From IMG/VR virus record IMGVR_UViG_3300042465_005830, positions 1-64,000 of that record: a stretch of 64,000 bases of DNA. One strand, given 5' to 3'. Below are positions 34,448 through 51,214 of the stretch, in pieces. This stretch comes from a virus. The position numbers were made by a program, and so were the translations under genes. Position 1 is the stretch's first letter, and each line of letters starts with the position of its first letter. The notes under the pieces are model-generated. The model was given only the letters and a program-made list of their open reading frames with translations. It was not told where the DNA came from and did no database searches.

Positions 34448-35425
34448 ATGAGTCTAAAAGACGAACGCATAGTTTACAAACCATTTGAATACCCACAAGC
34501 ACACGATTACTGGCTTAAAGCGCACCAAGCGCACTGGTTACATACAGAAGTTCCAATGTCACAGGACGTAACAGATTGGAATTCAAACCTTAAACCGCAC
34601 GAAAAAAACCTTATAGGAGGAATCCTAAAAGGGTTTGCTCAAACAGAGACAGTTGTAAATGATTACTGGACATCTTTAGTAACAAAATGGTTTAGAAAAC
34701 CGGAAGTTATTATGATGGCAGTTACGTTTGGAGCTTTCGAAACAATCCATGCCGAAGCATATGCTTTACTAAACGAGCAATTAGGATTAGATAATTTTGC
34801 AGAATTCTTAGAAGATGAATCAACTGCAGCTAAAATTCAATCTTTAATGGATGTTAGAGATGGAAATGCAGGAGAAACAGATTGGCATGAAGCAGCTAGA
34901 TCACTTGCTATATTCTCAGCATTTACTGAAGGAGTAAATCTATTCTCTTCTTTTGCAGTATTGTTATCATTTAAAATGAGAAACAAATTAAAAGGAGTAG
35001 GGCAAATAGTAGAATGGTCTGTAAGAGATGAATCACTTCACTCAGAAGCAGGTTGTTGGTTATTCAGAACCTTAATGGAAGAATATCCAGAATTAAAAAC
35101 AGAAAGACTTATTAACGATATTAGAGAAGCGGCAACGCTTGCTTTAGAATTAGAATTCAATTTTATTGATAAAGTATTTGAAATGGGAGATTTAGAGAAC
35201 TTATCTAAAAACGACCTTAAAAACTTTATTAAACACAGAGTAAACACTAAGATGGGAGATTTAGGATTAAAACCATTAATACCTTCAGATCAAATCGATA
35301 AAGGAGCTTTGAAACAAATGTTATGGTTTGATGCTGTAGTAGCAGGTAAACAGCATACAGATTTCTTTGCATCAAGAGTAACGAATTATGCCAAAGGGCA
35401 TATGGATTGGGACAACGCATTTTAA
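34448..35425 (+). CDS. nrdB: Ribonucleotide reductase, class I small subunit (325 aa)
   Basis: Iron ligands and radical site are readable: E98 and H101 with Y105 in FETIHAEAY (the E+7 tyrosine of R2 proteins), a middle Glu in AFTEGVNLFSSF, and E195/H198 in RDESLHSEAG. The C-terminus ends DWDNAF, the tail that docks on the large subunit. With the next gene it makes deoxynucleotides from ribonucleotides. It lies 9 bases before the large subunit gene. Confidence 0.93.
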   Translation: MSLKDERIVYKPFEYPQAHDYWLKAHQAHWLHTEVPMSQDVTDWNSNLKPHEKNLIGGILKGFAQTETVVNDYWTSLVTKWFRKPEVIMMAVTFGAFETIHAEAYALLNEQLGLDNFAEFLEDESTAAKIQSLMDVRDGNAGETDWHEAARSLAIFSAFTEGVNLFSSFAVLLSFKMRNKLKGVGQIVEWSVRDESLHSEAGCWLFRTLMEEYPELKTERLINDIREAATLALELEFNFIDKVFEMGDLENLSKNDLKNFIKHRVNTKMGDLGLKPLIPSDQIDKGALKQMLWFDAVVAGKQHTDFFASRVTNYAKGHMDWDNAF

Positions 35426-35434
35426 TTTAATTTT

Positions 35435-37144
35435 ATGGGAGTAGATTACAGTACCTGGAAACCAGGTGTAGATTATCCAGAATGGATGAATGAAGTATCT
35501 TTGGCAACAATTTCAAACGGGTACTTATTACCTGATGAAAATCCAAAGAAAGCATACAGAAGAGTTGCTGATGCAGTAGCTAAAAGATTAGATCGTCCTG
35601 ATCTAGCAAATAAGTTTTTCAAGTATATGTGGAAGGGTTGGTTAAACCTAGCTTCACCAGTACTATCAAACACTGGAACTGACAAAGGATTACCAATCTC
35701 ATGTTTCGGTATAGATACTCCTGATTCAATCAGAGGTATAGGATTAACCAATGCAGAACTGATGAGACTTACCTCTTTAGGAGGAGGAGTAGGAATTGGA
35801 TTAGGAAGAGTTAGAGGAAGAGGAAAAAAGATCGCAAATGGCGATACTGGTAACTCAGAAGGAATTGTGCCTTGGGCTAAGATTTATGATTCAACTATCA
35901 TTGCTACAAATCAAGGATCAGTTCGTAGAGGAGCAGCTTCTGTGAACTTAGATATCAATCACGAAGATATAAAAGAGTTTTTACGTATTAGAAGACCTCA
36001 AGGAGATCCAAACCGTCAGTGTTTAAATTTACACCAATGTGTTTCTATTGATGATAAATTTATGCAGAGATTAGAGCATAGAGATCCAGAAGCAATGGAA
36101 CTATGGGTTGAGATTCTTAAATCAAGAGTTGAGACAGGAGAGCCTTATATTATGTTTAAAGATAATGTTAACAACGCTAACCCTCAGGCATACGTAAAGA
36201 ATAACTTAGATGTTACAATGACTAATATCTGTTCGGAGATTGCATTACATACCGATGAAGAGCATTCATTTGTTTGTTGTTTATCTTCTTTGAACTTAAC
36301 AAGATACGATGAGTGGAAAGATACTGATTTAGTTGAGACAGCAATCTATTTCTTAGATGGAGTACTAGAAGAATTCTTAGTTAAGACAAATGGTAAGGAC
36401 TCTATGATTAGAGCACACCGTTCTGCTAAAAAAGGAAGAGCATTAGGATTAGGAGTTTTAGGATGGCATTCATTCTTACAATCAAAAGGATTACCATTTA
36501 ATTCAATTGCATCTACTTCTTGGACAAACAGAATATTCTCTCAAATTAAAACACAAGCAGAAGCTGCTTCTAGAAAGTTAGCTGAAGAGTATGGGGAACC
36601 AATCTGGTGTAAAGGAACAGGAATGAGAAATACGCATTTAATTGCAATTGCTCCAACAGTTTCCAACTCAACAATCTCAGGAGGAGTATCGGCAGGTATT
36701 GAACCAATTCCAGCTAACGTTTATACTTTCAATTCATCTAAAGGAACTTTCATTAGAAAGAATCCAGTATTAGAAAAGTATTTAGAAGACAAAGGACACA
36801 ATACAGAAGAGGTATGGCAACAGATTTTAAAGGATAGAGGATCAATTGCAAATCTACCTGAAGACATTATGCCGTTTGAAGATAAAGAAGTATTCTTAAC
36901 ATTTGCAGAAATAAACCAACTAGCTTTAGTAGAACAAGCTTCAGTAAGACAGAAGTACGTAGACCAGGCTCAATCATTAAATTTAGCATTCGATCCAAGT
37001 GATAGTCCTAAGTTCATAAACCTTGTTCACCAGACAGCTTGGAAACTTGGATTAAAAACGTTATATTATCTAAGAACTGATTCTGTCATAAACGGAGATA
37101 TCGGAAGTAGAACTTCTGAAGACTGTTTAAGCTGTGATGGATAA
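35435..37144 (+). CDS. nrdA: Ribonucleotide reductase, class I large subunit (569 aa)
   Basis: Active-site residues are present: C90 in PISCFG, the triad N264-C266-E268 in NICSEI, the pairing Cys at 281/282 in VCCLSSLNL, and the C-terminal redox pair C564/C567 in EDCLSCDG. GGGVGIGLGRVRG is the usual substrate loop. At 569 residues it is shorter than E. coli NrdA (761) and has no ATP cone, so it should lack dATP activity control. The thioredoxin at 43950 could re-reduce it. Confidence 0.93.
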   Translation: MGVDYSTWKPGVDYPEWMNEVSLATISNGYLLPDENPKKAYRRVADAVAKRLDRPDLANKFFKYMWKGWLNLASPVLSNTGTDKGLPISCFGIDTPDSIRGIGLTNAELMRLTSLGGGVGIGLGRVRGRGKKIANGDTGNSEGIVPWAKIYDSTIIATNQGSVRRGAASVNLDINHEDIKEFLRIRRPQGDPNRQCLNLHQCVSIDDKFMQRLEHRDPEAMELWVEILKSRVETGEPYIMFKDNVNNANPQAYVKNNLDVTMTNICSEIALHTDEEHSFVCCLSSLNLTRYDEWKDTDLVETAIYFLDGVLEEFLVKTNGKDSMIRAHRSAKKGRALGLGVLGWHSFLQSKGLPFNSIASTSWTNRIFSQIKTQAEAASRKLAEEYGEPIWCKGTGMRNTHLIAIAPTVSNSTISGGVSAGIEPIPANVYTFNSSKGTFIRKNPVLEKYLEDKGHNTEEVWQQILKDRGSIANLPEDIMPFEDKEVFLTFAEINQLALVEQASVRQKYVDQAQSLNLAFDPSDSPKFINLVHQTAWKLGLKTLYYLRTDSVINGDIGSRTSEDCLSCDG

Positions 37145-37156
37145 AATTAAAAAAAT

Positions 37157-37612
37157 ATGATACAATTATTTATTTCACTATTCCTAGCAACTGTAATTTT
37201 TCTACTAACTGTAAAACTGAGAGAGTATGTACAAGAGGTAGCACAGTTGAGAAAACAAATTGAAGAAACAGCAGCAGCTCATATAATTGAGAAAGCAAAA
37301 GTAAAGAAAGATTCTACATTTAGATCTTCAGCAGTTAATTGGGGTAAGACAATTGAACACTTTGTACCTTTTATGACAAAGTTCCCTATACCAGCAGAAG
37401 ATGTAGTATTCCTTGGAATGCCAATTGACTATGTAGGGTTTACCAACACAGAAAGTAAAACTAAATGCGAAGTACATTTCATTGAAGTAAAATCAGGAAA
37501 TGCATTTCTAATGGGAAAACAAAAGAATATTAAAAAAGCAATTCAAGAAGGAAGAGTTCACTGGCATGAAATTGCAGTAGATGGAAACCGAGCAGAGATC
37601 ACAGAAGAATAG
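37157..37612 (+). CDS. Membrane-anchored resolvase-related nuclease (151 aa)
   Basis: An N-terminal membrane helix (residues 3-18) and a short coiled coil are followed by a nuclease-like domain: VPFMTKFPIPAEDVVFLGMP, IDYVGF, then HFIEVKSGNAFL. The D and E-x-K signature and overall order fit the family of endonucleases related to archaeal Holliday junction resolvases. It follows the reductase genes by 12 bases and ends the replication block. Membrane tethering of such a nuclease is unusual. Confidence 0.72.
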   Translation: MIQLFISLFLATVIFLLTVKLREYVQEVAQLRKQIEETAAAHIIEKAKVKKDSTFRSSAVNWGKTIEHFVPFMTKFPIPAEDVVFLGMPIDYVGFTNTESKTKCEVHFIEVKSGNAFLMGKQKNIKKAIQEGRVHWHEIAVDGNRAEITEE

Positions 37613-37625: not shown

Positions 37626-38627
37626 ATGAATATACTAGCCAAAATAGTAAAAATGTTATACCCTCTACTAATACTAGGGGGTATTCTATCTACGTACGGT
37701 CAAACCTTTACGCACTCCGGTTATATCTACGGATCAAACGCTGTAGGAATACCGGGTGTACAAGTACAGTTGTATAGTAGAACAACACCTACTTTGACAG
37801 GATTTACATCTCAACAAAACTATAACGGACATTCCTATTACAGATCAACTGGAAGTGCTTTCTGGACAGATGCAAGACAGGCATGTGCCAATATGGGAGG
37901 TTATTTAGTAACTGTAACATCAGCAGCTGAAAATAACTTTTTATTCAACCTATGGCCTTCAGGATGGATAGGATTAACAGATGAAGCAGTCGAGGGTCAA
38001 TGGAGATGGGTAACAGGAGAACCCTATTCTTATCAATCATGGAATCCAGGTGAACCTAATAACGCAGGTAATGAAGATTATGTTCAATTTGTAGGAGCAG
38101 GTAGATGGAATGATTTACCTAATAATCAAGCACTTCCATATGTGATAGAATTTGATTATGTAGTAACTTTTACTCCTTGGGCTTTAGTAACAACAGCGAC
38201 AACAGATGCTACAGGAAGATATGTATTTTCAACACCAACAAATCCTTCTATAGAATACTACATAACATTTACTCCTCCAACTTTACCTACATTACAAGTA
38301 AGTGATGCACAGATTTCAAATAATGTAACTTTAGGAACACTAGCTTTAAGAAGTAGAGACTTTTTTAGATTTGATGTTAATAATGACGGTAGAGTAACAA
38401 TATCAGATACTTACACAATATTTGCTAGAAGAAATGGATTAATAAACTCGTTTGCAGCATCACCTCCTGATAGTAGGATATTTACATCATCCCAATGGAG
38501 TTCAATTAGTGGAAGTGCATTAAACTTAAAAACAACAATCCCAGGGGTACAATCAGTAACAATAAACAATCCTATATCAGGAGGAGTTTCGAGTTACTAT
38601 ATAACAAGATTAGGATATAGCAACTAA
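37626..38627 (+). CDS. Secreted C-type lectin with dockerin-like repeat (333 aa)
   Basis: The ATG at 37626 gives a clean signal peptide (MNILAKIVKMLYPLLILGGI, ending near TYGQ); an in-frame upstream ATG at 37581 would spoil it. Residues about 55-170 are a C-type lectin domain: FWTDARQACANMGGYLVTV, WIGLTDEAVEGQWRWVTGEP, then GEPNN (the EPN sugar/calcium motif), EDYVQF and WNDLP. A small beta domain (ATTDATGRYVFSTP) follows, then a calcium-loop repeat DVNNDGRVTISD as in dockerins. The last about 95 residues resemble the end of the next protein. Likely an exported sugar-binding protein. Confidence 0.82.
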   Translation: MNILAKIVKMLYPLLILGGILSTYGQTFTHSGYIYGSNAVGIPGVQVQLYSRTTPTLTGFTSQQNYNGHSYYRSTGSAFWTDARQACANMGGYLVTVTSAAENNFLFNLWPSGWIGLTDEAVEGQWRWVTGEPYSYQSWNPGEPNNAGNEDYVQFVGAGRWNDLPNNQALPYVIEFDYVVTFTPWALVTTATTDATGRYVFSTPTNPSIEYYITFTPPTLPTLQVSDAQISNNVTLGTLALRSRDFFRFDVNNDGRVTISDTYTIFARRNGLINSFAASPPDSRIFTSSQWSSISGSALNLKTTIPGVQSVTINNPISGGVSSYYITRLGYSN

Positions 38628-38636
38628 AGTTGCGAC

Positions 38637-38644
38637 TATTTATA
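38637..38644 (+). promoter_or_regulatory. Putative late promoter motif TATTTATA
   Basis: TATTTATAAAAGG lies 69 bases before the ATG at 38706; the leader holds a small hairpin, GTGC-ATAA-GCAC. Confidence 0.35.
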
Positions 38645-38705
38645 AAAGGTATGAGAGTGCATAAGCACCAGGTTGTGAAATAAAAATAACTTAAAAACAA
38701 AAGAA

Positions 38706-39797
38706 ATGAAAAAATTACTTTTAGTATTAGGTGTAGTTTTAGTATCATTAACAGGATTTGCACAAACTACCGCACCTGATGCTACTAAGCCTTACTTGAT
38801 ATTTGACGCTAGTTACAACCTAGCACCAATTGGAGCAACACCTACAAACGTTGCAATTTACTATGATAACGCTGGTTCTACAGCTATCAAAGCATTACAG
38901 TACAGATTTTGGTACGACAAAAACGTATTTGCTTCTCCGACAGTAACATACACTGGGACCGAAACAAACAGTTACTTCCAAACATTAGTAAACGCTACTG
39001 AAGGAAATGTAACAGTTACATGGGTTTACACCGGAGCAGATGTTGCTTTCAATATTGCTGACGGAGCAATGTTCAATATAGCTTTACCATTTAAAGCAGG
39101 TTATACTAATGGAGCTGTAACTACTATGTCATTCTCAGGAGCAACAGCTTATCCTGCTTATGGTACCCTAGCAAATGGAACTGATACAACATTAGGATTA
39201 CATAACTACGGAGGTGCGTTCACAGAACCCGTATTTGAATATGCTGCTACATTCTTAAACAGCCCAACTAACCCAGCTTCAGATATACCGGTTGTATTAC
39301 AAAAATCTTCAAACGGAACAACTTGGGTAGATGTAATGACTGTTAATACAGCGGCTTCAACAGGAGTAGCAGAATTCACAACTAACTTAGATCAAAACTA
39401 CTGGCAAATTAGAGTAAAAGTAAATCCAGGTATTACAGCTCCAGCAGCTTTATCTGCAGCAGATGCTGATATGATGGCTCAAATTGCTACAGGATTACAA
39501 ACACCAACTGGAATTCAATTCTATACTGCTAACCCTAACCAAGCAAATGGAATTACAATTTCAGATTCATATACATTATTCTCTAGATTGGCTCAAGGTC
39601 TAACAGCTTACCCAAACAATCCTGATATCTTATTCTTTACAGAAGCTCAATACACTCAAATTGCAGCAGCTACAACAAGTTTATCAGCAACAATTCCAGG
39701 GGTAGCTACGTTCTTATCAGCTAACATCAACAATACAACAGCAGCCAATTACTACCTACTAGTATTAGGAGACGCAAACGGAACAGGACATAACTAA
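38706..39797 (+). CDS. Secreted cohesin-like protein with dockerin-like C-terminus (363 aa)
   Basis: A strong signal peptide (MKKLLLVLGVVLVSLTGFAQ) leads to a cohesin-like beta sandwich (about residues 28-170: NVAIYYDNAGSTAIKALQYR, WYDKNVF, a hydrophobic strand after DGAMFNIALPF). An Ig-like region (about 180-245) follows. The last about 90 residues (ITISDSYTLFSRLAQGL ... ATIPGVATF ... YYLLVLGD) match the end of the lectin before it, but the calcium loop is degraded. The mix suggests an adaptor with both halves of a cohesin-dockerin pair. Fold calls are by eye. Confidence 0.65.
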   Translation: MKKLLLVLGVVLVSLTGFAQTTAPDATKPYLIFDASYNLAPIGATPTNVAIYYDNAGSTAIKALQYRFWYDKNVFASPTVTYTGTETNSYFQTLVNATEGNVTVTWVYTGADVAFNIADGAMFNIALPFKAGYTNGAVTTMSFSGATAYPAYGTLANGTDTTLGLHNYGGAFTEPVFEYAATFLNSPTNPASDIPVVLQKSSNGTTWVDVMTVNTAASTGVAEFTTNLDQNYWQIRVKVNPGITAPAALSAADADMMAQIATGLQTPTGIQFYTANPNQANGITISDSYTLFSRLAQGLTAYPNNPDILFFTEAQYTQIAAATTSLSATIPGVATFLSANINNTTAANYYLLVLGDANGTGHN

Positions 39798-39798
39798 T

Positions 39799-40530
39799 AT
39801 GTTACGCTATATAATCATAGCACTATTATCAATAAATTCACTATATTCTCAGGTACAGTTTCAAGTACCTGGGATTACAGTGTCTCCATCTAATACTATA
39901 GACCTTCCTGTAACAATTCAAACAAATGGAAATGTATTAGGGAGTTTAGAGTTTGCTTTAAATTATGACCAAAGCATCTTACAATTCTCAGAAATAATCT
40001 TATCTGAAAAAGCACAGACCTGGTTAACATATACAATGGATACTGGAAGTGGAAAAGTAAGATGGGGTGGGTATGATAAGACTCATGGACAGCATTCTAT
40101 AACAAATCCAACAGAACTATTCATATTAAAATTCACAGTACTTAGTACTAACTGGGCTCAGACTCCTATAACAGTAGGAAGAAAGACAGCAGGAGATGTA
40201 CAGGGGTGGGATATCGCTGTAACTAATACGGATGGATATATCAACTATAATAGAAATGCAGCACCATTAGATGAAGATGGAATCCATGGAAGAGCATACC
40301 CAGTACCTACAGACGGAATTGTAACAATGGAGATGTCTTTACCGGTAAGTGGGGATTATGAAATCATAATCTTCGATATGGGAGGTAATCTTCTAAATAT
40401 AAGGAAAGAGCGTTTTGCAAAAGGACCTAATACTACTTATGGAGATTTAACTGCTTACCCAAGTGGTAACTATTTATTAAATATAAGAAGTAAGAACTTC
40501 GCAAAAACATTTAAAATAATAAAAAAATAA
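39799..40530 (+). CDS. Cohesin-like protein with type IX secretion sorting domain (243 aa)
   Basis: A signal peptide (MLRYIIIALLSINSLYSQ) is followed by a cohesin-type domain, about residues 20-150: PVTIQTNGNVLGSLEFALNY, DQSILQFSEI, GKVRWGGYD and ELFILKFTV. Residues about 165-243 are a type A Por C-terminal sorting domain: AYPVPTDGIVTMEMSL, YEIIIFDMGGNLL, DLTAYPSGNYLLNI and final KTFKIIKK. In Bacteroidota this domain sends proteins out through the type IX system and often leads to surface attachment. It begins 1 base after the gene upstream. Confidence 0.85.
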   Translation: MLRYIIIALLSINSLYSQVQFQVPGITVSPSNTIDLPVTIQTNGNVLGSLEFALNYDQSILQFSEIILSEKAQTWLTYTMDTGSGKVRWGGYDKTHGQHSITNPTELFILKFTVLSTNWAQTPITVGRKTAGDVQGWDIAVTNTDGYINYNRNAAPLDEDGIHGRAYPVPTDGIVTMEMSLPVSGDYEIIIFDMGGNLLNIRKERFAKGPNTTYGDLTAYPSGNYLLNIRSKNFAKTFKIIKK

Positions 40531-40533: not shown

Positions 40534-40857
40534 ATGTCAGAAGAAACAAACAACGACGGTACTTGGTCAGGATTGAAAAAAACAATTATTGGAACATTAA
40601 CTACAGTAATTGGTGGAGGAGGTATTTGGTTATCAACACAACTATTTGGAGGTCACTCTGAAGATAAAGAAGAACCAAAAACTGAAGTAGCAGCTCCAGC
40701 TGCAGCACCTGTTGTTATTAACTTACAAAACAATAACACTAACCAACAAAAACAACAATCAAACAATTCAAACTCTAACAACGTTAAGCAACAAGCAGCA
40801 CCTGTTCAAGCAGCACCTGCTCCAGCTAAACCAAAAACAGAAGAAGAACCTTGGTAA
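40534..40857 (+). CDS. Single-span membrane protein with Asn/Gln-rich tail (107 aa)
   Basis: A charged N-terminus, one glycine-rich membrane helix (about residues 17-40: TIIGTLTTVIGGGGIWLSTQ) and a long low-complexity tail rich in Ala/Pro and Asn/Gln follow. It starts 3 bases after the type IX gene and its stop overlaps the TTG start of the CsgG-like gene. A holin or a helper of the secretion pore are both possible; the sequence does not decide. Confidence 0.7.
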   Translation: MSEETNNDGTWSGLKKTIIGTLTTVIGGGGIWLSTQLFGGHSEDKEEPKTEVAAPAAAPVVINLQNNNTNQQKQQSNNSNSNNVKQQAAPVQAAPAPAKPKTEEEPW

Positions 40858-41561
40858 GATTATTCACAATATTATTTCTAGCTTTCAGTATAGTAGGTTG
40901 TGCCCAAAAGGTAGGATCTACTAAAACTGAAGAGTATAAGGCTGATTTCGAAAAGAAACAGTCTCTAGAAGTTGTATCTGATTATACTGATACTATTCAA
41001 ATACCAATTCAAATATTAAAAATTGGTATTAATGAAGAGTTATATGAAATGTATCCTGAATTAAAAGACAAAAGAGTTGGTTTAGGGGTTTCAAATATTG
41101 TATTAGAGTATTTAGAATCAACAAATAGATTTGTATTTACAGAAGAAAGAAATGAGATAAAACAAAACATGATTGCTCAAGATAAAGCATCAGCAAAAGG
41201 AATCTCATCAAATAAAATAGTTGTCAAAGGAAATGTTGTTTTAGCTAGATATTTTGTATACATTGAAGTATATGATTTCTCAGTTGGAGAAGATGAAGAA
41301 ATAGGAGGCAACGGAATAGAAATAAAACAAAAAACAATAATAGGGTTACAGATAAGATTTGTGGATGCACAAACTGGTGAAATAATTACTGGATCAGGTT
41401 CCGGTGAAGCAGTTACAGTGAAGAAAGCAAATCTACTAGACGGACTCGACGATACAAAATTCAATCAATCAACAATCGGAGTATCTACCAAAAAGTCATT
41501 AGAAACTGCTTCTTCAAGAGTAGTAAGTAAAATGATTAAAAAGGGGATATTTCGTAGTTAA
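40851..41561 (+). CDS. csgG: CsgG-like outer-membrane lipoprotein (236 aa)
   Basis: The frame starts at TTG 40851, overlapping the stop of the gene before. A lipoprotein signal with lipobox IVGC (Cys17) comes first. The body fits CsgG: VGLGVSNIVLEYLESTNRFV, EERNEIKQNMIAQ, KIVVKGNVVLARYFVYIEVY, then IIGLQIRFVDAQTGEI and SGSGEAVTVKK. In curli systems CsgG forms a nine-subunit pore that exports unfolded protein across the outer membrane. The gene runs straight into an outer-membrane protein gene (TAATG). Confidence 0.8.
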   Translation: MVRLFTILFLAFSIVGCAQKVGSTKTEEYKADFEKKQSLEVVSDYTDTIQIPIQILKIGINEELYEMYPELKDKRVGLGVSNIVLEYLESTNRFVFTEERNEIKQNMIAQDKASAKGISSNKIVVKGNVVLARYFVYIEVYDFSVGEDEEIGGNGIEIKQKTIIGLQIRFVDAQTGEIITGSGSGEAVTVKKANLLDGLDDTKFNQSTIGVSTKKSLETASSRVVSKMIKKGIFRS

Positions 41562-42988
41562 TGAAAAAATGGATATTATTATTTTCACTATTTTCAGTCC
41601 TGACCTCCTGGGGCCAGTACACCTATACCTACAAAGATCCTTGTACCCTAGTATCAAAGAGTATTTACGTACCAGCCGGTGGAGGGGTAATGGTAAACTA
41701 CTTCGATAACCAAAGTACATTTTCCGCAAATGATTTCTCCTCAGGAGTCTTTGATAACTGGATAGCTCAAGTATCTCAACAAAATTCTAACTCACCTTGT
41801 GAATCAGTAACTACAGCAATTGTAAATAGTATAACTAATATAACAGTCGCTAATACATTAACTGTTGTTACAAATGTAATATCAGTAACAAACGTAGCTC
41901 AATCCATAGCAACCATAGGAGGATCTATGGGAAGCTCTATGACAGCTACAGCCGGAGGCGTAACAAATTCTTCACAAAGTGAAGGAGGTAGTACTAACCA
42001 AAACTCAAAAGATGAAAAAAAATCCGATTCAAATACCAATTCAGGAACAAATACAGGAACTGCTGGAACAAGCCCAACAGGTAACCAAAATCAAGGAAGC
42101 CAAACCAATCCTAACCCTTCTGGAGGAACACCTACAGGATCTTCAACAGGAACACCTCAGCAAGGAGGAGACACTACAAATCCAAATCAACCAGCTTCGA
42201 CAGGAAGTCCTACGTCTGAGTCGTCTGTAGAAGGGTCAAGCGGGAGTAGTAACAACTTAGCTAACTCTTTATCGAACTCTGTAGATGGAGGATCAGCTGA
42301 CGGAGGAAGTTCAGGCGGAGGAACATCAGGTGGTGGTAAAAAATCTAACAATGCAGCTAAGAGTGTAGGAAGTTTAATTGCTTCTGGGGATATAGTAGCT
42401 ATTGCAAATACTGATCAAACTCAGAATTTTAGATTTGTAGGAAGTATAACTCACGCCAATACTAGGGGAACTAGAATTAAAGGAGTATTATTTAATTTTA
42501 CTTCAGGTGTTAATAATTTGAACGTTACTTTTTATAAGTCTTGGATTAATAAATCTAAAAAATTAAATACAGTAGGTGCTCAATCTATTATGATGGATTT
42601 TGATAAAAACTTCTTTAGTACAACTACCGTATTAGAATCTTATAAAGTAAATAATAAACTAACAGGAATGTTTGGTGTTAATTTTACAGCGGGTAAAATG
42701 GGAGAAAGATCTCTACTAAACCTATCTGCTGTAGGTGGAGCACATAGTAGTTTTAAACTAAGTGATAGAGTTAGTACTAGCGTACTAGTATTAGGAGTTT
42801 ACTCTCCATTCACTCAGTTCTATGAAGGTAAATGGTGGGATGCAGGTATAATAGTAGTACCATTTAATTCATGGGATTTAAAAATAACTAAGACATTTAA
42901 GTTTAATGTAAGTTTTACAGGAGTATACGAAGCAGGTAAAGAATTTTTAAATTACCAAATATTAACAGGAGGTAAATTAACATTTTAA
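41561..42988 (+). CDS. Outer-membrane beta-barrel-like protein with low-complexity insert (475 aa)
   Basis: A signal peptide (MKKWILLFSLFSVLTSWGQ) is followed by about 110 residues with two Cys, then a long Ser/Thr/Asn/Gly-rich region (about 125-275) and a C-terminal part with alternating strands (SFKLSDRVSTSVLVLGVY, TKTFKFNVSFTGVYEAG) ending in Phe (GKLTF), the usual end of a barrel inserted by the Bam machine. It overlaps the CsgG-like gene by 1 base. It may be a surface display or pore partner of CsgG. Confidence 0.65.
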   Translation: MKKWILLFSLFSVLTSWGQYTYTYKDPCTLVSKSIYVPAGGGVMVNYFDNQSTFSANDFSSGVFDNWIAQVSQQNSNSPCESVTTAIVNSITNITVANTLTVVTNVISVTNVAQSIATIGGSMGSSMTATAGGVTNSSQSEGGSTNQNSKDEKKSDSNTNSGTNTGTAGTSPTGNQNQGSQTNPNPSGGTPTGSSTGTPQQGGDTTNPNQPASTGSPTSESSVEGSSGSSNNLANSLSNSVDGGSADGGSSGGGTSGGGKKSNNAAKSVGSLIASGDIVAIANTDQTQNFRFVGSITHANTRGTRIKGVLFNFTSGVNNLNVTFYKSWINKSKKLNTVGAQSIMMDFDKNFFSTTTVLESYKVNNKLTGMFGVNFTAGKMGERSLLNLSAVGGAHSSFKLSDRVSTSVLVLGVYSPFTQFYEGKWWDAGIIVVPFNSWDLKITKTFKFNVSFTGVYEAGKEFLNYQILTGGKLTF

Positions 42989-42990
42989 TT

Positions 42991-43059
42991 ATGAAAAAAT
43001 TAAATCAATTATTTGAAAGGTTTTACGATAAGGTATCAAATTTCCTTTTTGGAAGATAA
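42991..43059 (+). CDS. Mini-ORF, 22 aa
   Basis: ATG, 21 codons more and a stop (MKKLNQLFERFYDKVSNFLF-GR) lie 2 bases after the barrel gene and 14 bases before the next signal-peptide gene. It is amphipathic and basic. It fits the tight packing of the cassette, but may be chance. Confidence 0.4.
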   Translation: MKKLNQLFERFYDKVSNFLFGR

Positions 43060-43073
43060 AACAGTTTAGTATT

Positions 43074-43529
43074 ATGAAAAAATTATTTTTATTATTAGCA
43101 TTAGTATTTCTAGTATCAGCTGATACAGCTACTAAAGAATGTTATAAAGTAACAAAAGTGTCTTCACAAGTTGAAGCACCAGAAATGAAAAAAGAAAGAG
43201 TTGTATTCGGAATTAAACAAATGACTGAAGAAATTCTATCTGAAAAATACGATATATGTGAAGATGGAACTCCAGTTGAAGTAGAAGTGTTATCAGTTGA
43301 AGCACCTTCCACAAATACCTCTTTAGGACCATTCTCTAAAACTAAAAAAATTACTATTGTAAAATTAAGACTATTAGTAAAAGGAGAAGAATATTGGGGT
43401 CAAGGAGAAGCAAACACTACAGTTCAATCGACTTTCTTAGATTTGAACGACGATAATTTACCATTTAATAAAACATCATTCTCAGGAGCAGTTAAAAAAG
43501 CTTTAGTAGAAGCTGTTGGAGAAATGTAA
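43074..43529 (+). CDS. Secreted protein of the CsgG cassette (151 aa)
   Basis: A signal peptide (MKKLFLLLALVFLVSADTAT) precedes an alpha/beta domain: KERVVFGIKQMTEEILSEKY, VEVEVLSVEAPS, ITIVKLRLLVKGEEYWG, ending in the helix FSGAVKKALVEAVGE. The order of strands and helices recalls the periplasmic domain of CsgG-type proteins, so it may be a partner of the pore. That is inference. It ends the envelope cassette. Confidence 0.6.
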   Translation: MKKLFLLLALVFLVSADTATKECYKVTKVSSQVEAPEMKKERVVFGIKQMTEEILSEKYDICEDGTPVEVEVLSVEAPSTNTSLGPFSKTKKITIVKLRLLVKGEEYWGQGEANTTVQSTFLDLNDDNLPFNKTSFSGAVKKALVEAVGEM

Positions 43530-45175: not shown

Positions 45176-46066
45176 ATGTCTAAAAAACATGTTGTAGTAT
45201 CCTTATCAGGAGGAATGGACTCAAGTACCTTATTACTTAGATGTCTAAAAGAGTATGACACAGTTACAGCTATTAGCTTTGACTATGGTCAAAAACACAG
45301 AGTAGAGTTAGAGAGAGCTCAATCATTAGTAGAGTACCTTAATGGTTGCTCTGAAAAAGCGGAACAAGATCAATTAGGTACAATTACGGTAGTAGGAAAA
45401 AACTACAATGAAGTTATGTATCGCCAAATCCAATTAAAAGGATTAGTTGATTTACTAGATTCAGCTTTAGTAACAGGAGGTGAAGATGTACCAGAAGGTC
45501 ACTATGCAGAAGATAATATGAAAGCAACAGTTGTTCCTAACAGAAACAAAATATTTGCTTCTATTACTCAAGCAGTAGCTTTATCAGTTGCAAATAGAAC
45601 AGGAGAGACTTGTGATATTGCAATGGGTATCCATGCAGGTGATCATGCAATTTATCCAGACTGTAGACAAGAATTTAGAGATGCAGATGATGCAGCTTTT
45701 AGAATGGGTAACTGGGAAGCAGAAAGAGTAGGGTATTTTACACCTTACTTAGAAGGAGATAAATTTACTATCTTACAAGACGGAGAAGTATTATGTAAAG
45801 AGTTAGGATTAGACTTTGATGAAGTTTATTCAAGAACTAATACATCTTACAAACCAATTAAAATGGTATACCATGACCCAGTAACATTTGAAAAATTTGA
45901 AGAATGGTTCTCAGATTATAAATCAGCTTCATCAGTTGAAAGAGTAGAAGCATTTATTAAATTAGGAAGACCTGATCCAGCTCCTTACGCAGACGAAACA
46001 GGACCAGTAACATGGGAACATGTAGTAACAGAAGTAACAAAAGTATTAAATAACCATAACAATTAA
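45176..46066 (+). CDS. queC: QueC-like 7-cyano-7-deazaguanine (preQ0) synthase (296 aa)
   Basis: The PP-loop SLSGGMDSST (S11-S17 region), FDYGQKHRVELERA, VPNRNKIFASI and GIHAGDHAIYPDCRQEF are the QueC hallmarks. QueC turns carboxy-deazaguanine into preQ0 with ATP and ammonia. The C-terminal zinc Cys cluster of bacterial QueC is not seen; the region reads TNTSYKPIKMVYHD. QueD, QueE, FolE and DpdA are not in the window. In phages this pathway often feeds deazaguanine into DNA as protection from restriction. Confidence 0.87.
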   Translation: MSKKHVVVSLSGGMDSSTLLLRCLKEYDTVTAISFDYGQKHRVELERAQSLVEYLNGCSEKAEQDQLGTITVVGKNYNEVMYRQIQLKGLVDLLDSALVTGGEDVPEGHYAEDNMKATVVPNRNKIFASITQAVALSVANRTGETCDIAMGIHAGDHAIYPDCRQEFRDADDAAFRMGNWEAERVGYFTPYLEGDKFTILQDGEVLCKELGLDFDEVYSRTNTSYKPIKMVYHDPVTFEKFEEWFSDYKSASSVERVEAFIKLGRPDPAPYADETGPVTWEHVVTEVTKVLNNHNN

Positions 46067-46852: not shown

Positions 46853-46938
46853 AATCGGTTGGTGTAATCGGGAATGAATACCGACAGAGGGTAACACCGC
46901 TTCTAAGCGGGATGAGGGTTCGAATCCCTCACCGATTC
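46853..46938 (+). tRNA. tRNA-like element 1 (anticodon unclear)
   Basis: Acceptor AATCGGT pairs fully with ACCGATT, and the T arm is perfect (GAGGG-TTCGAAT-CCCTC). The centre is odd: stem CCGC/GCGG closes a 6-base loop TTCTAA and the D arm is not regular. It may be a degenerate or specially folded tRNA (TCT Arg-like). Confidence 0.5.
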
Positions 46939-46943
46939 CAAAC

Positions 46944-47040
46944 AGTCAGGAGACCATTGGTTGGTGGCACCTCCCCAAGGTTTAGTTGAAATATACTATT
47001 TATGGCAAAGCTGGAGCAGGTTCGAATCCTGTCCTGACTA
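46944..47040 (+). tRNA. tRNA-like element 2 (anticodon unclear)
   Basis: Acceptor AGTCAGG/CCTGACT and T arm GCAGG-TTCGAAT-CCTGT are clear. The 97-base length and loop TCCCCAA, without U33, are not standard. A CCC (Gly-like) reading is possible. Confidence 0.5.
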
Positions 47041-47081
47041 CAAAATTAAACTACTGTTCTTTGAAATAAAAATTATAAATT

Positions 47082-47393
47082 ATGGAACAAATTTTAGCAT
47101 TTGTTTTAGGGGTTGGTATAGCTCTCCTTGCATGGGGGGTTGTGGTAGCGTTTAGAACAGCAAGCAAAGTAGCAAAGCAAGAAAAAGAGTTAACTGAAAT
47201 ACAGAACTGGATTTCTAGAAACGATGAATTAGTAAATCGTAGAATTGATCAGGAAGTTGATCGAGTAAACAAACTACACTCAGACTGTATTTCCTATACA
47301 GACTCCAGAGTAGACAAATTAGAACAAAAACTTACGTCAATTAACAATGATGGATGTGAGCCAGTTAAGAAAAAAAAATTAATAAACGGATAA
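47082..47393 (+). CDS. Membrane-anchored coiled-coil protein (103 aa)
   Basis: One N-terminal membrane helix (residues 3-23, ILAFVLGVGIALLAWGVVVA) and then a long helix with heptads (KQEKELTEIQNWISRNDELV, RVDKLEQKLTSIN). It lies inside the RNA gene array with no clear promoter before it. Its function is unknown; a spanin-like or envelope role cannot be excluded. Confidence 0.65.
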   Translation: MEQILAFVLGVGIALLAWGVVVAFRTASKVAKQEKELTEIQNWISRNDELVNRRIDQEVDRVNKLHSDCISYTDSRVDKLEQKLTSINNDGCEPVKKKKLING

Positions 47394-47413
47394 ATTAATC
47401 CAAAGAACAGTAG

Positions 47414-47444
47414 TTGTTTTATAAAATAAAAGTTCGTATATTTA
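47414..47444 (+). promoter_or_regulatory. Promoter, TTG-N20-TATATTTA (tandem copy 1)
   Basis: TTG 47414-47416, 20-base spacer, TATATTTA 47437-47444. Confidence 0.6.
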
Positions 47445-47483
47445 TAATATATAAAAACACAAAGAAAAAAAATTAAAATATAG

Positions 47484-47514
47484 TTGGACTGGAATGGAAA
47501 AGTTCATATATTTA
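47484..47514 (+). promoter_or_regulatory. Promoter, TTG-N20-TATATTTA (tandem copy 2)
   Basis: TTG 47484-47486, 20-base spacer, TATATTTA 47507-47514; 20 bases before a 47-residue ORF. The two promoters are 70 bases apart. Confidence 0.6.
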
Positions 47515-47533
47515 TATATAGAAAGCAAATAAA

Positions 47534-47677
47534 ATGAAAGCAATTCAAAACATACATCAACAACTTAGCACAGCGACAAGAGCATTGAATACGTGGTCGG
47601 ATTCGTTATGTGGGGATGTCATTTTAGGCTTTGCTGGATATAATAACGAACCGAAACAAGGAGGTACCGGGGTATGA
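47534..47677 (+). CDS. Small protein of unknown function (47 aa)
   Basis: The ORF has its own double promoter and its own terminator, which supports expression. The sequence (HQQLSTATRALNTWSDSLCG, ending GGTGV) shows no known motif. Strong expression of a small protein from a single-gene unit would fit a host take-over role, but that is only inference. Confidence 0.5.
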   Translation: MKAIQNIHQQLSTATRALNTWSDSLCGDVILGFAGYNNEPKQGGTGV

Positions 47678-47714
47678 TATGATATAGTATAAAATACATA
47701 TTATAAGTAAGGTA

Positions 47715-47743
47715 CCCGGATCAAAAAAAGATTCGGGTTTTTT
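47715..47743 (+). terminator. Rho-independent terminator
   Basis: Stem CCCGGATC 47715-47722 with GATTCGGG 47730-47737 (one G-U), an A7 loop and a T run. It isolates the 47-residue gene from the tRNA array. Confidence 0.85.
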
Positions 47744-47755
47744 ATTAAAAAAAAG

Positions 47756-47786
47756 TTGCTAGAAAGAAAAAAAAATCGTATCTTTA
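47756..47786 (+). promoter_or_regulatory. Promoter of main tRNA array, TTG-N20-TATCTTTA
   Basis: TTG 47756-47758 (GTTGCTAGAAAG), 20-base spacer, TATCTTTA 47779-47786 and then GGTA. The same GTTGCTAGAAAGAAA string recurs at 50582. Confidence 0.7.
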
Positions 47787-47836
47787 GGTACAGAAATAAA
47801 GAATAAGAGTTCATTGACATATTGGATAAAGCATAG

Positions 47837-47920
47837 GGAAGGCATCCGGCTGGATCAGGAGCCACTCTTGAAAAGTGGTAGCAGGTAATACTGTTGTGGG
47901 TTCGAGTCCCACGTCTTCCT
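47837..47920 (+). tRNA. tRNA-Ser(TGA)
   Basis: Acceptor GGAAGGC/GTCTTCC, anticodon stem CCACT/AGTGG with loop CTTGAAA, a long variable arm and T arm GTGGG-TTCGAGT-CCCAC. Followed by CA, not CCA. Confidence 0.92.
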
Positions 47921-47926
47921 CAATAT

Positions 47927-47998
47927 TGGCTTATAGTGTAACGGTTAGCACAAAACACTTTGACTGTTTTAGTCTAGGTTCGAATCCTAGTAAGCCAA
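47927..47998 (+). tRNA. tRNA-Gln(TTG)
   Basis: Acceptor TGGCTTA/TAAGCCA, anticodon loop CTTTGAC on stem AAACA/TGTTT, T arm CTAGG-TTCGAAT-CCTAG. Confidence 0.92.
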
Positions 47999-48000
47999 CA

Positions 48001-48213
48001 AATAATTGTAAGTAATGAAAGCCTATCCCAACACTTGATCAGTAAGTAGGACGGTTAGTAAAGAAAGCATTATCAGTAAGTAGTGGAGAAATCCATATGG
48101 AGAAAACGATGCAAGACATGAGTACAGGGAATCAGCCCGATGGCTTTGCTTACGGAAATTACAGTAGTTTTGAGATGGGCGAATTCTACTTTAAAAAAAT
48201 AATCCCTTCACCA
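48001..48213 (+). other. Spacer in tRNA array
   Basis: I see no tRNA here. The string ATCAGTAAGTAG occurs twice, near 48039 and 48070. An ORF from 48097 runs on into tRNA-Pro and is not believed. Confidence 0.4.
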
Positions 48214-48289
48214 CTGGTAGTAGAGGAGTCCGGTTTATCTCGCTGGCCTTGGACGCTAGAGCACGCAGGTTCGAATCCTGCCTACCAGA
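48214..48289 (+). tRNA. tRNA-Pro(TGG)
   Basis: Acceptor CTGGTAG/CTACCAG, anticodon stem CTGGC/GCTAG with loop CTTGGAC, T arm GCAGG-TTCGAAT-CCTGC. Followed by CG, an exception in the array. Confidence 0.9.
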
Positions 48290-48297
48290 CGAGAAGA

Positions 48298-48360
48298 GAC
48301 TGTTACTAATTCATAGAAGACCACGCGAGTAAGTCCTCGAAGCGTAGAATTAGATTTGCC
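48298..48360 (+). repeat. Repeated hairpin spacer, copy 1
   Basis: GACTGTTACTAATTCATAGA at the start and GAAGCGTAGAATTAGATTTG at the end flank a variable middle. CTAATTC 48306-48312 pairs with GAATTAG 48347-48353. The second copy is at 48439. The last bases overlap the 5' end of tRNA-Lys. Confidence 0.8.
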
Positions 48361-48430
48361 TTCGAAGCTCATGTGGACGGGCACCGGGCTTTTAACTCGG
48401 GGGTAGCTGGTTCGAGGCCAGCCGGGGGTA
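48358..48430 (+). tRNA. tRNA-Lys(TTT)
   Basis: Acceptor GCCTTCG/CGGGGGT with several G-U pairs, D arm GCTC/GGGC, anticodon loop CTTTTAA on CCGGG/CTCGG, T arm GCTGG-TTCGAGG-CCAGC. Confidence 0.85.
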
Positions 48431-48438
48431 CAAAAGAA

Positions 48439-48494
48439 GACTGTTACTAATTCATAGAAGGGCTTTTAGACCGAAGCGTAGAATTAGATTTGCC
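48439..48494 (+). repeat. Repeated hairpin spacer, copy 2
   Basis: Same ends as copy 1 with a shorter, different middle (GGCTTTTAGACC). It joins tRNA-Lys to tRNA-Val and overlaps the 5' end of the latter by 3 bases. Confidence 0.8.
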
Positions 48495-48562
48495 TCGTTG
48501 GCGTAATGGTAGCGTATTTGTTTTACATGCAAAGGGCGATAGTTCGATTCTATCACGAGGTA
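48492..48562 (+). tRNA. tRNA-Val(TAC)
   Basis: Acceptor GCCTCGT/ACGAGGT, anticodon loop TTTACAT on TTTGT/GCAAA, T arm GATAG-TTCGATT-CTATC. Confidence 0.92.
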
Positions 48563-48661
48563 CAAAATTCTGGGTAGCAAGTAAAATACCGGCAAGTATT
48601 TTCAAGACTATATGGAGTCTATTATGAGTTAGTAATTTGCCGATGAAAGCTTGTTATAGTT
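48563..48661 (+). other. Structured spacer in tRNA array
   Basis: Two clean hairpins: AAAATAC/GTATTTT with loop CGGCAA, and AGACT/AGTCT. No tRNA or ORF seen. Confidence 0.45.
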
Positions 48662-48733
48662 TCGTTCTTGGTAGATTGGTGACTACGCTGCCCGTGGAGG
48701 GTGGAGAAGCAGGTTCGATTCCTGTAGAATGAT
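48662..48733 (+). tRNA. tRNA with unusual anticodon loop (CGTGGAG)
   Basis: Acceptor TCGTTCT/AGAATGA, D arm GTAG/CTAC and T arm GCAGG-TTCGATT-CCTGT are regular. The anticodon stem CTGCC/GGTGG closes loop CGTGGAG, which has G at position 33; TGG (Pro) would be the formal reading, GTG (His) is one base off. Confidence 0.7.
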
Positions 48734-48739
48734 CAAATT

Positions 48740-48822
48740 GGGATGCTTCAGTCACTGGTGTGATAAGCGGTCTGTAAAATCGTTGCTGTAAGAAGCGTGT
48801 GGTTCGATTCCACAGTATCCCA
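48740..48822 (+). tRNA. tRNA-Tyr(GTA)
   Basis: Acceptor GGGATGC/GTATCCC, anticodon loop CTGTAAA, a long variable arm as usual for bacterial Tyr, T arm TGTGG-TTCGATT-CCACA. Confidence 0.9.
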
Positions 48823-48827
48823 CAATT

Positions 48828-48900
48828 GGACCTTTTGTATAGCTGGTGCGTACGCTAGTCTGAAGAACTAGAGGAACAGGTTCGATTCCTGTAGGGTCCA
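48828..48900 (+). tRNA. tRNA-Phe(GAA)
   Basis: Acceptor GGACCTT/AGGGTCC, anticodon loop CTGAAGA on CTAGT/ACTAG, T arm ACAGG-TTCGATT-CCTGT. Confidence 0.92.
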
Positions 48901-48905
48901 CAACC

Positions 48906-48977
48906 GGGTTTGTCGTATAAAGGTTATTACGGATGACTGTTAATCATCTTATGGAGGTTCGATTCCTCCCAGGCCCG
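48906..48977 (+). tRNA. tRNA-Asn(GTT)
   Basis: Acceptor GGGTTTG/CAGGCCC, anticodon loop CTGTTAA on GATGA/TCATC, T arm GGAGG-TTCGATT-CCTCC, discriminator G. Confidence 0.92.
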
Positions 48978-48986
48978 CAATTAAAT

Positions 48987-49130
48987 GCTCGTATAACAGG
49001 TAGTGTGGTAGCTCCCCAACCTGAAGTGGGATAACGTGACGGTCAATCGTAAAAGCTCAAGGTACGTAACAAGTAGCAGTTGGTTGGAGTAAGTGACTTA
49101 TCGAGGTTGGTTCGATTCCAGCTATGAGCA
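48987..49130 (+). tRNA. tRNA-like element 3, 144 bases long
   Basis: Acceptor GCTCGTA/TATGAGC and T arm GTTGG-TTCGATT-CCAGC are clear, but about 75 bases more than normal lie between. A hairpin CAGGT/ACCTG near the 5' end carries CTCCCCAA in its loop. A shorter start at GCTCAAG (near 49055) would give 76 bases but pairs less well. Confidence 0.45.
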
Positions 49131-49137
49131 CAAAAAT

Positions 49138-49211
49138 AGGTAATTAGCTCAATTGGTTAGAGCACTCGCCTGATACGTGAGAGGTTATAGGTTCGATTCC
49201 TATATTACCTA
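49138..49211 (+). tRNA. tRNA-Ile(GAT)
   Basis: Acceptor AGGTAAT/ATTACCT, D arm GCTC/GAGC, anticodon loop CTGATAC on CTCGC/GTGAG, T arm ATAGG-TTCGATT-CCTAT. Confidence 0.95.
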
Positions 49212-49216
49212 CAAAG

Positions 49217-49299
49217 GGAAAGTAAATCAACTAGGAGTTGAGACCGCTTGCTAAGCGTATCGTGCCTTCGGGCATGGGGTTCGATACCTCTGCTTTCCT
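49217..49299 (+). tRNA. tRNA-Ser(GCT)
   Basis: Acceptor GGAAAGT/GCTTTCC, D stem TCAA/TTGA, anticodon loop TTGCTAA with a short CGC/GCG stem, variable arm TGCC-TTCG-GGCA. Confidence 0.85.
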
Positions 49300-49430
49300 C
49301 AAAAAAACCTCCTCACCGTCCTCACAACGCATCTAAGGAATGCAGGAGAAGGAAGTACGAACGGGGCCCCGTGGTAAGACACTTTAAAATCAGATAGTAC
49401 AGCGATAGGGTAAGAGGTTCCCTATCAACT
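49300..49430 (+). other. Spacer with possible degenerate tRNA-Leu
   Basis: A perfect 7-bp hairpin GATAGGG/CCCTATC lies at about 49413-49435. Just before it, GTGGTAAGACACTTTAAAAT recalls a tRNA-Leu(TAA) D and anticodon region, but no stems form. Confidence 0.35.
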
Positions 49431-49499
49431 ACCGACTTGATCTAGGATCGAGAATATCTCATAAGTATTCTCAGACAAGAGCGTAACTTGTAGTCGGTA
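49431..49499 (+). tRNA. tRNA-Met(CAT), non-standard T-loop
   Basis: Acceptor ACCGACT/AGTCGGT, D stem GATC/GATC, anticodon loop CTCATAA, T stem ACAAG/CTTGT with loop AGCGTAA in place of TTCGAAT. CAT may also be a lysidine-modified Ile tRNA. Confidence 0.75.
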
Positions 49500-49505
49500 C
49501 AATAT

Positions 49506-49579
49506 GGTGATTGTAGCTGAATTGGTAAAGCGTCTGATTGTGGTTCAGGAGATTGTGGGTTCGAGTCCCATCTTTCACA
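49506..49579 (+). tRNA. tRNA-His(GTG)
   Basis: Extra G before the acceptor GTGATTG/CTTTCAC (two T-T mismatches), anticodon loop TTGTGGT on TCTGA/TCAGG, T arm GTGGG-TTCGAGT-CCCAT. Confidence 0.88.
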
Positions 49580-49586
49580 CAAACAT

Positions 49587-49666
49587 ATCCCTGTGGTGAA
49601 AATGGTAAACACACCAGGCTTAAAACTTGGCGCTCAGGCTTGCTGGTTCGACTCCAGTCAGGGGTA
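49587..49666 (+). tRNA. tRNA-Leu(TAA)
   Basis: Acceptor ATCCCTG/CAGGGGT, anticodon loop CTTAAAA on CCAGG/CTTGG, variable arm, T arm GCTGG-TTCGACT-CCAGT. Confidence 0.9.
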
Positions 49667-49742
49667 CAAAGAGAGAGATGTAGGACTAATTGCCTACCCT
49701 GTTGCATAGCAGAAAGTAGCTTAAATAAAGCCTCTCTTATTT

Positions 49743-49814
49743 GGTCTTATAGTTTAATTGGAAAAACTTATCGCTACGAACGATAGAACGTAGGTTCGAC
49801 TCCTACTAAGACCT
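49743..49814 (+). tRNA. tRNA-Arg(ACG)
   Basis: Acceptor GGTCTTA/TAAGACC, anticodon loop CTACGAA on TATCG/CGATA, T arm GTAGG-TTCGACT-CCTAC. Position A34 would need TadA to make inosine. Confidence 0.92.
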
Positions 49815-49819
49815 CAACT

Positions 49820-49891
49820 GCCCGTATAGTTTAATCGGAAGAACTAAACGCTTCTAACGTTTCAGTCCTGGTTCAAGTCCAGGTATGGGTT
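49820..49891 (+). tRNA. tRNA-Arg(TCT)
   Basis: Acceptor GCCCGTA/TATGGGT, anticodon loop CTTCTAA on AAACG/CGTTT, T arm CCTGG-TTCAAGT-CCAGG. Confidence 0.92.
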
Positions 49892-49963
49892 CAAAAAAAT
49901 CGTCCCTCATAAGGGTTAAGTAGATGAGGCTAATCTAGGTAGGTTAAGCGATACCCTACAAAT

Positions 49964-50034
49964 GCGTTCCACAGACAAGGTGTCGGTCAGGTCTCCAAAA
50001 CCTCGACGGCTGGGTTCGATTCCTAGGGTTCGCG
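49964..50034 (+). tRNA. tRNA-Trp(CCA)
   Basis: Anticodon loop CTCCAAA on AGGT/ACCT, T arm CTGGG-TTCGATT-CCTAG, acceptor GCGTTCC/GGTTCGC with two T-T mismatches, discriminator G. Confidence 0.82.
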
Positions 50035-50066
50035 CAAATATATTGTTTCATTAAAAAAAGTAAATC

Positions 50067-50573: not shown

Positions 50574-50582
50574 TAAAAAAAG

Positions 50583-50613
50583 TTGCTAGAAAGAAATAAA
50601 GTTCATATCTTTA
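50583..50613 (+). promoter_or_regulatory. Promoter of second tRNA block, TTG-N20-TATCTTTA
   Basis: TTG 50583-50585, 20-base spacer, TATCTTTA 50606-50613, then AGTATAA. It shares GTTGCTAGAAAGAAA with the promoter at 47756, as if copied. Confidence 0.7.
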
Positions 50614-50700
50614 AGTATAAGAAAGAAGATAAAACATCTACTACGTAACGCACGATCGACGACACGTACTGTCTGGCAGGTCAGGCTAGATGTTTAAATT

Positions 50701-50771
50701 GGTCGGTTGGCCGAATGGTTAGGCGCAGGATTGCAAACTCTGTAACGTTGGTTCGATTCCAACACCGACCT
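50701..50771 (+). tRNA. tRNA-Cys(GCA)
   Basis: Acceptor GGTCGGT/ACCGACC, anticodon loop TTGCAAA, T arm GTTGG-TTCGATT-CCAAC. Confidence 0.9.
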
Positions 50772-50866
50772 CATTGAAGGTTCGACCCTCTACCAAATGT
50801 GTTACACCCACAGATGGACAACGAGAGGGAGCTACCGATTGATAAGTGGCCGCACATGCGGCAAAT

Positions 50867-50940: not shown

Positions 50941-50945
50941 CAAAA

Positions 50946-51015: not shown

Positions 51016-51024
51016 TTAAAATAT

Positions 51025-51129: not shown

Positions 51130-51135
51130 AAATTT

Positions 51136-51209: not shown

Positions 51210-51214
51210 CAACT

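Follow-up and report, generated by a model that had tools for sequence, protein, structure and literature searches.

The stretch of DNA analysed here (the window, 64,000 nucleotides) is part of the 76 kb virus record IMGVR_UViG_3300042465_005830, which derives from an Immutovirus-like phage. Three adjacent genes on the + strand (37626-38624, 38706-39794 and 39799-40527) were found at one locus, as a sequence-only reading of the same DNA had reported, and their products were termed P1 (head protein), P2 (adaptor) and P3 (anchor). The N-termini of P1-P3 are hydrophobic and of the export type (signal peptides were judged from hydrophobicity alone). P1 also has a longer frame, from 37581, but the relatives begin at the equivalent of 37626. 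In the following list, T9SS stands for type IX secretion system, Ig for immunoglobulin and AF2 for AlphaFold2, and the basis of each assignment is given in brackets where one was noted:

37626-38624, + strand: P1, head protein, with a hydrophobic N-terminus, a C-type lectin, an Ig/X-like module and a C-terminal dockerin-like module
37863-38144, + strand: C-type lectin domain of P1, residues 80-173 (Pfam, PDB, motif audit)
38292-38624, + strand: dockerin-like module of P1, approximately residues 223-333 (model, PDB fold matches, sub-threshold Dockerin_1)
38373-38408, + strand: 12-residue EF-hand calcium loop DVNNDGRVTISD, P1 residues 250-261
38706-39794, + strand: P2, adaptor, with a hydrophobic N-terminus, a cohesin fold, an Ig/X-like module and a dockerin-like module
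38766-39230, + strand: cohesin domain of P2, residues 21-175 (AF2 model and PDB fold matches)
39231-39425, + strand: Ig/X-like module of P2, residues ~176-240 (strands in the model)
39426-39794, + strand: dockerin-like module of P2, residues 241-363, with loop N-x-N...D (homology to the P1 module)
39799-40527, + strand: P3, anchor, with a cohesin and a type A T9SS sorting domain
39853-40182, + strand: cohesin domain of P3, residues 19-128 (Pfam)
40297-40527, + strand: T9SS type A C-terminal sorting domain of P3 (Pfam and TIGR04183)

For P3, the cohesin and the type A sorting domain proposed by the sequence-only reading were both recovered above curated cut-offs. P3 matched Cohesin (PF00963) at 40.2 bits (cut-off 24.1, E 4.8e-10), Por_Secre_tail of Pfam at E 2.1e-8 and TIGR04183 at 36.8 bits (cut-off 23, E 2.9e-9). 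P3 was the sole TIGR04183 match in the 76 kb record, and in eight records of 76-168 kb this locus accounted for every match: one to the sorting domain per record, and one or two to cohesin.

The N-terminal domain of P2 is, as modelled, a cohesin. P2 itself had no Pfam match, and the Pfam Cohesin family was matched by 8 of 22 P2 relatives (best E 7.4e-5). Residues 21-170 of the AF2 model had a predicted local distance difference test (pLDDT) score of ~71-94, all 50 PDB matches listed for the model were cohesin or scaffoldin entries (best E 4.2e-7), and the cohesin model gave a template-modelling (TM) score of 0.73 by target against 1aoh and 1g1k. The alignments to 4fl4 and 3kcp ran over 232-248 columns, past the cohesin; these, the strands in the model and weak Big_1/Transthyretin matches in the P2 relatives are the basis for the Ig/X-like module. 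The dockerin-like module was of low confidence within the P2 model. PDB sequence searches with the P2 profile returned no match, and a comparison of the whole-P2 and P3 profiles revealed no similarity: the divergence between the two cohesins exceeds what sequence profiles can bridge, and they are linked by fold alone. Rather than belonging to unrelated folds, both cohesin-like domains proved to be cohesins.

The C-terminal module that P1 and P2 had been said to share was detected by BLASTP (E 5e-11, 34% identity over 90 residues) and by profile-profile comparison (probability 97.7%, E 1.6e-12 over 164 columns). An alignment of 54 rows from many phages was used for modelling, and the AF2 model of the module reached a pLDDT of 89.3 and a predicted TM score of 0.79. 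When this model was compared with 350,542 PDB chains, 28 matches resulted, of which the top 16 were all dockerins, superposed at ~1.2-3 Å over 43-60 columns, with TM scores by target of 0.61-0.73 for single dockerins and E-values of 0.067-2.2. Weak individual E-values are expected for so small a domain, and the call is based on the consistency of the matches; on the model, the shared module has a dockerin fold. A PDB sequence search with the module profile gave sub-threshold dockerins amid noise. The calcium loop falls into two classes, as would be expected of two distinct plugs: D-x-N...D in 37/37 head modules (position 1 D, position 3 N, position 9 T/S, position 12 D) and N-x-N...D in 34/36 adaptor modules.

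In P1, the C-type lectin sits inside an Ig/CarboxypepD_reg-like (X-like) module. Lectin_C was matched at residues 80-173 (Pfam E 8.5e-17; PDB C-type lectins to 6.5e-26), so that the lectin proposed for the first gene was recovered and the motifs quoted in its support were real. The EPN / E / WND calcium-sugar site is intact in P1 and was kept in 15/15 lectin-type relatives, which makes a working, calcium-dependent sugar site likely. The EPN motif usually goes with mannose-type ligands. The conserved disulfides of C-type lectins were absent, P1 having one cysteine in the whole protein.

The trio recurs in dozens of related contigs. In at least 35 related phage contigs (given L-numbers where they have to be told apart), the anchor and adaptor were constant and the head was exchanged: the first-slot genes keep the dockerin-like and Ig/X-like modules and vary in the head domain. 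Most freshwater phages carry a C-type lectin as the head. Other heads were PA14 (L021 and L072, with a weak match in L061, and L029 via alignment to L021), GEVED (L009, L056 and L082) and an unnamed domain of ~200 residues (L007, L008 and L014). In L015 (2365-4032), a LamG (concanavalin A-like) domain is inserted in the C-type lectin, forming a lectin within a lectin, and in L014 (6060-8333) tandem head genes, the unnamed domain then the C-type lectin, precede a single adaptor and anchor. Heads differ between phages that are closely related: L009 shares 96-98% identity with the window in P4 and P5 (products of the genes that follow the trio) and 88% in P2, and carries a GEVED head with a module just 39% identical; the P5 of L014 is identical to that of the window, with an additional head present.

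Wherever the contig was long enough to tell, the adaptor was directly followed by the anchor. In L082, L083 and L084, whose proteins are 30-38% identical to P2, the two are fused into single proteins of 628-647 residues which retain both cohesins, the dockerin-like module and the sorting domain; the public phage protein A0A6J5M064 (636 amino acids) is of the same kind. Such a fusion in three distant phages is a classic sign of a shared complex. The head gene of L082 lies after P6, which places P4-P6 in the same inherited block; no head gene was visible in the available contig sequence of L083 and L084. Within the freshwater clade, the distances of the P2 dockerin-like module followed those of the P3 cohesin (partial rho 0.72; 0.13 for the P3 sorting domain; no significance test), and the P1 module gave 0.23 with the P2 cohesin and 0.01 with the P3 cohesin, neighbouring genes sharing history. 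These values lean towards a pairing of the P2 dockerin with the P3 cohesin and of the P1 dockerin with the P2 cohesin.

The ratio of non-synonymous to synonymous substitution rates (dN/dS) was 0.10-0.24 for P1-P3, P5 and P6 (purifying selection), indicating selection to retain their products. Given this selection and the recurrence in dozens of contigs, the pattern of the trio is not a matter of chance. The motif CTATTTATA, which recurs ahead of P1 and P2, was rejected, being not above chance (4 matches, 2.1 expected). A comparison of head type with tail-fibre tip was also dropped: a shared tip was seen in four lectin-bearing records of the first eight, a tiny sample with incomplete contigs.

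The closest named relatives of the phage are the Flavobacterium phages vB_FspM_immuto (160 kb, genus Immutovirus; MW353175-7), from the Baltic Sea, with Flavobacterium sp. LMO8 as host; the 12 kb around the trio was 84% identical to vB_FspM_immuto at the DNA level over 89%. In the cultured-phage collection, the trio was carried by the immuto isolates only. No relative of P2 came to light in bacteria or plasmids; the bacterial genome scan, in which the phylum of L056 was represented by 3 genomes, gave one match, L056 itself (JAAEPJ010000011.1). L056 comes from a metagenome-assembled genome bin and is a phage-like contig with a recombinase, DnaB, ribonucleotide reductase and the trio with a GEVED head. 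The bin that holds it contains T9SS sorting domains, and mis-binning or a host link is possible.

The locus runs in the order ribonucleotide reductase, Holliday-junction-type endonuclease, P1-P3, P4-P6, further genes and a transfer RNA (tRNA) array. The other features are as follows:

34448-37144: ribonucleotide reductase genes, upstream of the trio
37157-37612: Holliday-junction-type endonuclease gene, between the ribonucleotide reductase genes and the trio
1229-7819: very large tail-fibre gene, 30 kb from the trio
40534-40854, + strand: P4, small protein, N/Q/P-rich in its tail and with a single likely membrane stretch (weak PHROG matches)
40851-41558, + strand: P5, CsgG-like, with a lipobox cysteine in the window copy (Pfam CsgG)
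41561-42985, + strand: P6, exported-type protein with a low-complexity linker and a beta-rich-looking C-terminus ending F/L

The genes for P2-P6 are almost gapless (successive spacings of 1 base, 3 bases, a 7-base overlap and a 1-base overlap). No usable PHROG, NCBIfam or PDB match was obtained for P4-P6; the PHROG 'Zot-like' and 'hol-like' matches of P4 were weak, lay in low-complexity sequence and were rejected. P5 matched CsgG (PF03783) at E 1.9e-4 (21.3 bits, cut-off 20.8), as did 2 of 16 relatives at E<=0.1, and had no PDB match. P6 had no family or PDB match, nor any CsgF family match, and is probably an outer-membrane barrel, to judge from its sequence features. A 151-amino-acid exported-type protein is encoded at 43074, and its C-terminus is, by eye, like the end of P5. 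P5, P6 and this gene (40851-43529) come after the trio in nearly all relatives. In L010 (10573-11792) and L045 (9054-10277), two extra genes lie between P4 and P5, one encoding a small membrane/coiled-coil protein, the other a repetitive, alanine-rich protein of 315-318 amino acids. The gene at 45176-46066 has the same position as the 7-cyano-7-deazaguanine synthase (QueC) gene of immuto, which suggests modified guanine in DNA or tRNA. The array of 23 tRNA genes (46853-51798, ~5 kb) covers 19 amino acids; none was found for Trp.

These observations give good support to a modular display chain of the cohesin-dockerin type. In the reading that we favour, with a probability of roughly 0.6, the three phage proteins would form a calcium-dependent plug-and-socket chain destined for the infected cell's envelope. 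P3 would be exported by the host T9SS via its sorting domain and would present its cohesin. The dockerin-like module of P2 would plug into P3, leaving the P2 cohesin as a second socket, into which the dockerin-like module of P1 would plug, with the C-type lectin outermost. The head would be the exchangeable part, with PA14, GEVED, LamG-containing or unnamed domains carried behind the same plug in the relatives. P1 and P2 may cross the outer membrane bound to P3, or via the CsgG-like P5 with P6, or not at all. The order anchor, adaptor, lectin suggested by the sequence-only reading fits the domain logic and the folds, and among the refuting outcomes named there, none of those checked appeared. 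Binding of these dockerins to these cohesins, arrival of P1 and P2 at the cell surface and acceptance of P3 by the host T9SS are predicted.

Several points weigh against this reading. No Foldseek E-value for the dockerin call was significant (best 0.067), and Pfam Dockerin_1 was found in 12/38 modules at E<=1, with a sub-threshold best of 8.8e-4; the module of the window scored 17.1 bits (cut-off 22.9). The module has one canonical calcium loop where a dockerin has two, its first repeat being without one, and it departs from the textbook dockerin also by a C-terminal extension. The calcium loop that the sequence-only reading quoted for P1 is real. The P2 loop starts with N and is without the position-1 aspartate. 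P1 and P2 had no sorting domain in the Pfam and TIGR04183 profile searches, so that sequence does not place them at the surface. Cooperation of another sort would also account for the fusion and co-conservation, and no link between head type and phage receptor emerged, the tail-fibre-tip pilot being uninformative.

As to purpose, the chain might occupy or cross-link host surface glycans and so hide the receptor of competing phages, resulting in superinfection exclusion; the heads may vary because host glycans vary. This masking of glycans against other phages is our first choice, put forward tentatively and with a good deal of doubt, and adhesion or aggregation is the second. The same chain could instead make the infected cell or its lysis debris sticky, gathering cells or polysaccharide particles for the progeny ('sibling capture'), a purpose that we regard as conceivable and rather unlikely. 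All the recognised heads (C-type lectin, LamG, PA14/GLEYA, GEVED) are tied to sugar binding or adhesion, and the block includes a CsgG-like gene, a capture role having been proposed for the curli-type genes of pelagimyophages (PMC7029224); however, a methylophage with csgGF showed no clumping in culture (PMC9004378) and no curlin-like subunit was recognised at the locus.

The operon-like packing of P2-P6, the want of sorting domains in P1 and P2 and the lysis role proposed for phage csgGF (PMC9004378) would suit a chain that acts with P4-P6 in the periplasm or in outer-membrane lysis, its lectin binding periplasmic or lipopolysaccharide sugars. This is improbable: the outer-membrane sorting domain of P3 scored above cut-off and was kept in 8/8 records tested and in the fused forms, and the swapped heads are domains normal on secreted surface proteins. 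Cohesin and T9SS domains originate in bacteria, and the phage lectin could plug into host cohesins, or the phage cohesin capture host dockerin proteins; but both halves occur, twice, in one phage block, three phages have the adaptor and anchor as a single protein, and the one 'bacterial' match to P2 (L056) is phage-like, which leaves such a hijack highly improbable. The trio might also decorate the phage particle as accessory fibres, since phage adhesins can have C-type lectin folds and Ig-like domains. The hydrophobic export-type N-termini, the T9SS sorting domain and the position of the trio between the ribonucleotide reductase genes and the tRNA array, not beside tail genes, give a virion location a very slim chance.

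The proposed chain resembles the cellulosome scaffolds of Clostridium thermocellum (3kcp, 4fl4) in the order cohesin, Ig/X-like, dockerin-like of P2, in the combination of a cohesin with a cell-surface sorting signal in P3, and in the fold matches to the 3kcp and 4fl4 complexes themselves. It differs in consisting of three small phage proteins with at most one cohesin each and a sugar-binding head in place of enzymes, in having a T9SS sorting domain rather than S-layer anchoring and a single canonical calcium loop rather than two, and in that its binding is predicted. No multi-cohesin scaffoldin with enzymes is present, and no catalytic domain was recognised in the heads examined. Mtd of Bordetella phage BPP-1 is a receptor-binding virion protein with a C-type lectin fold, varied by a retroelement. 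In both cases the element of the binding device that varies has a C-type lectin fold and is made by a phage; here, unlike in Mtd, whole domains are exchanged, in a protein with an export-type N-terminus.

Among Bacteroidota phages, type A sorting-domain cargo that varies between close relatives, one with PA14, was reported for Cryophage, and hijacking of the host T9SS with superinfection exclusion was proposed (PMC7468147). There each cargo carries the sorting domain, whereas here one constant anchor would serve the heads via an adaptor, and that paper mentions neither cohesin nor lectin (PMC7468147). The vB_FspM_immuto phages have the same trio (68-76% protein identity for P1-P3) and the same following genes. 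In GenBank the head and anchor of the trio bear the labels 'lectin C-type domain-containing' and 'cohesin domain-containing'; the adaptor is labelled 'hypothetical protein' and the record is without a dockerin, T9SS or scaffold reading. CsgG-type pores are encoded by pelagimyophages (PMC7029224) and, as csgG/csgF, by the methylophage Melnitz (PMC9004378). A CsgG-like envelope protein is encoded here too; P5, however, is a borderline CsgG tied to a lectin scaffold, and P6 has no CsgF match. The novelty claimed by the sequence-only reading is accordingly narrowed, T9SS cargo in phage and the immuto lectin and cohesin labels being on record; no report of the trio as a scaffold, nor of any phage cohesin-dockerin scaffold, was found in the open-access literature, where phage-genome papers make passing mention of single dockerin-like matches. 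New are the constant anchor and adaptor with swapped heads in at least 35 contigs, the fusions in three phages and the packing of P2-P6, CsgG-like gene included.

If the chain forms, it would be, as far as known, the first virus-made cohesin-dockerin scaffold. Cohesins and dockerins are a standard molecular glue in biotechnology, to which the phage ones would add small pairs. The exchangeable-head design was unexpected. At a little under even odds, exchangeable sugar-binding heads are borne at the surface of the infected cell by an exported anchor and adaptor that stay constant, such that the lineage re-targets the re-coating of its host by swapping one gene, in a cellulosome-like manner. If the chain forms, re-coating of a host by means of the T9SS, a system specific to Bacteroidota, would have a concrete phage example. 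With the socket constant and the heads swapped, head type is predicted to track the surface glycan or the receptor of competing phages, which makes the design testable in immuto on Flavobacterium sp. LMO8, an isolate already available.

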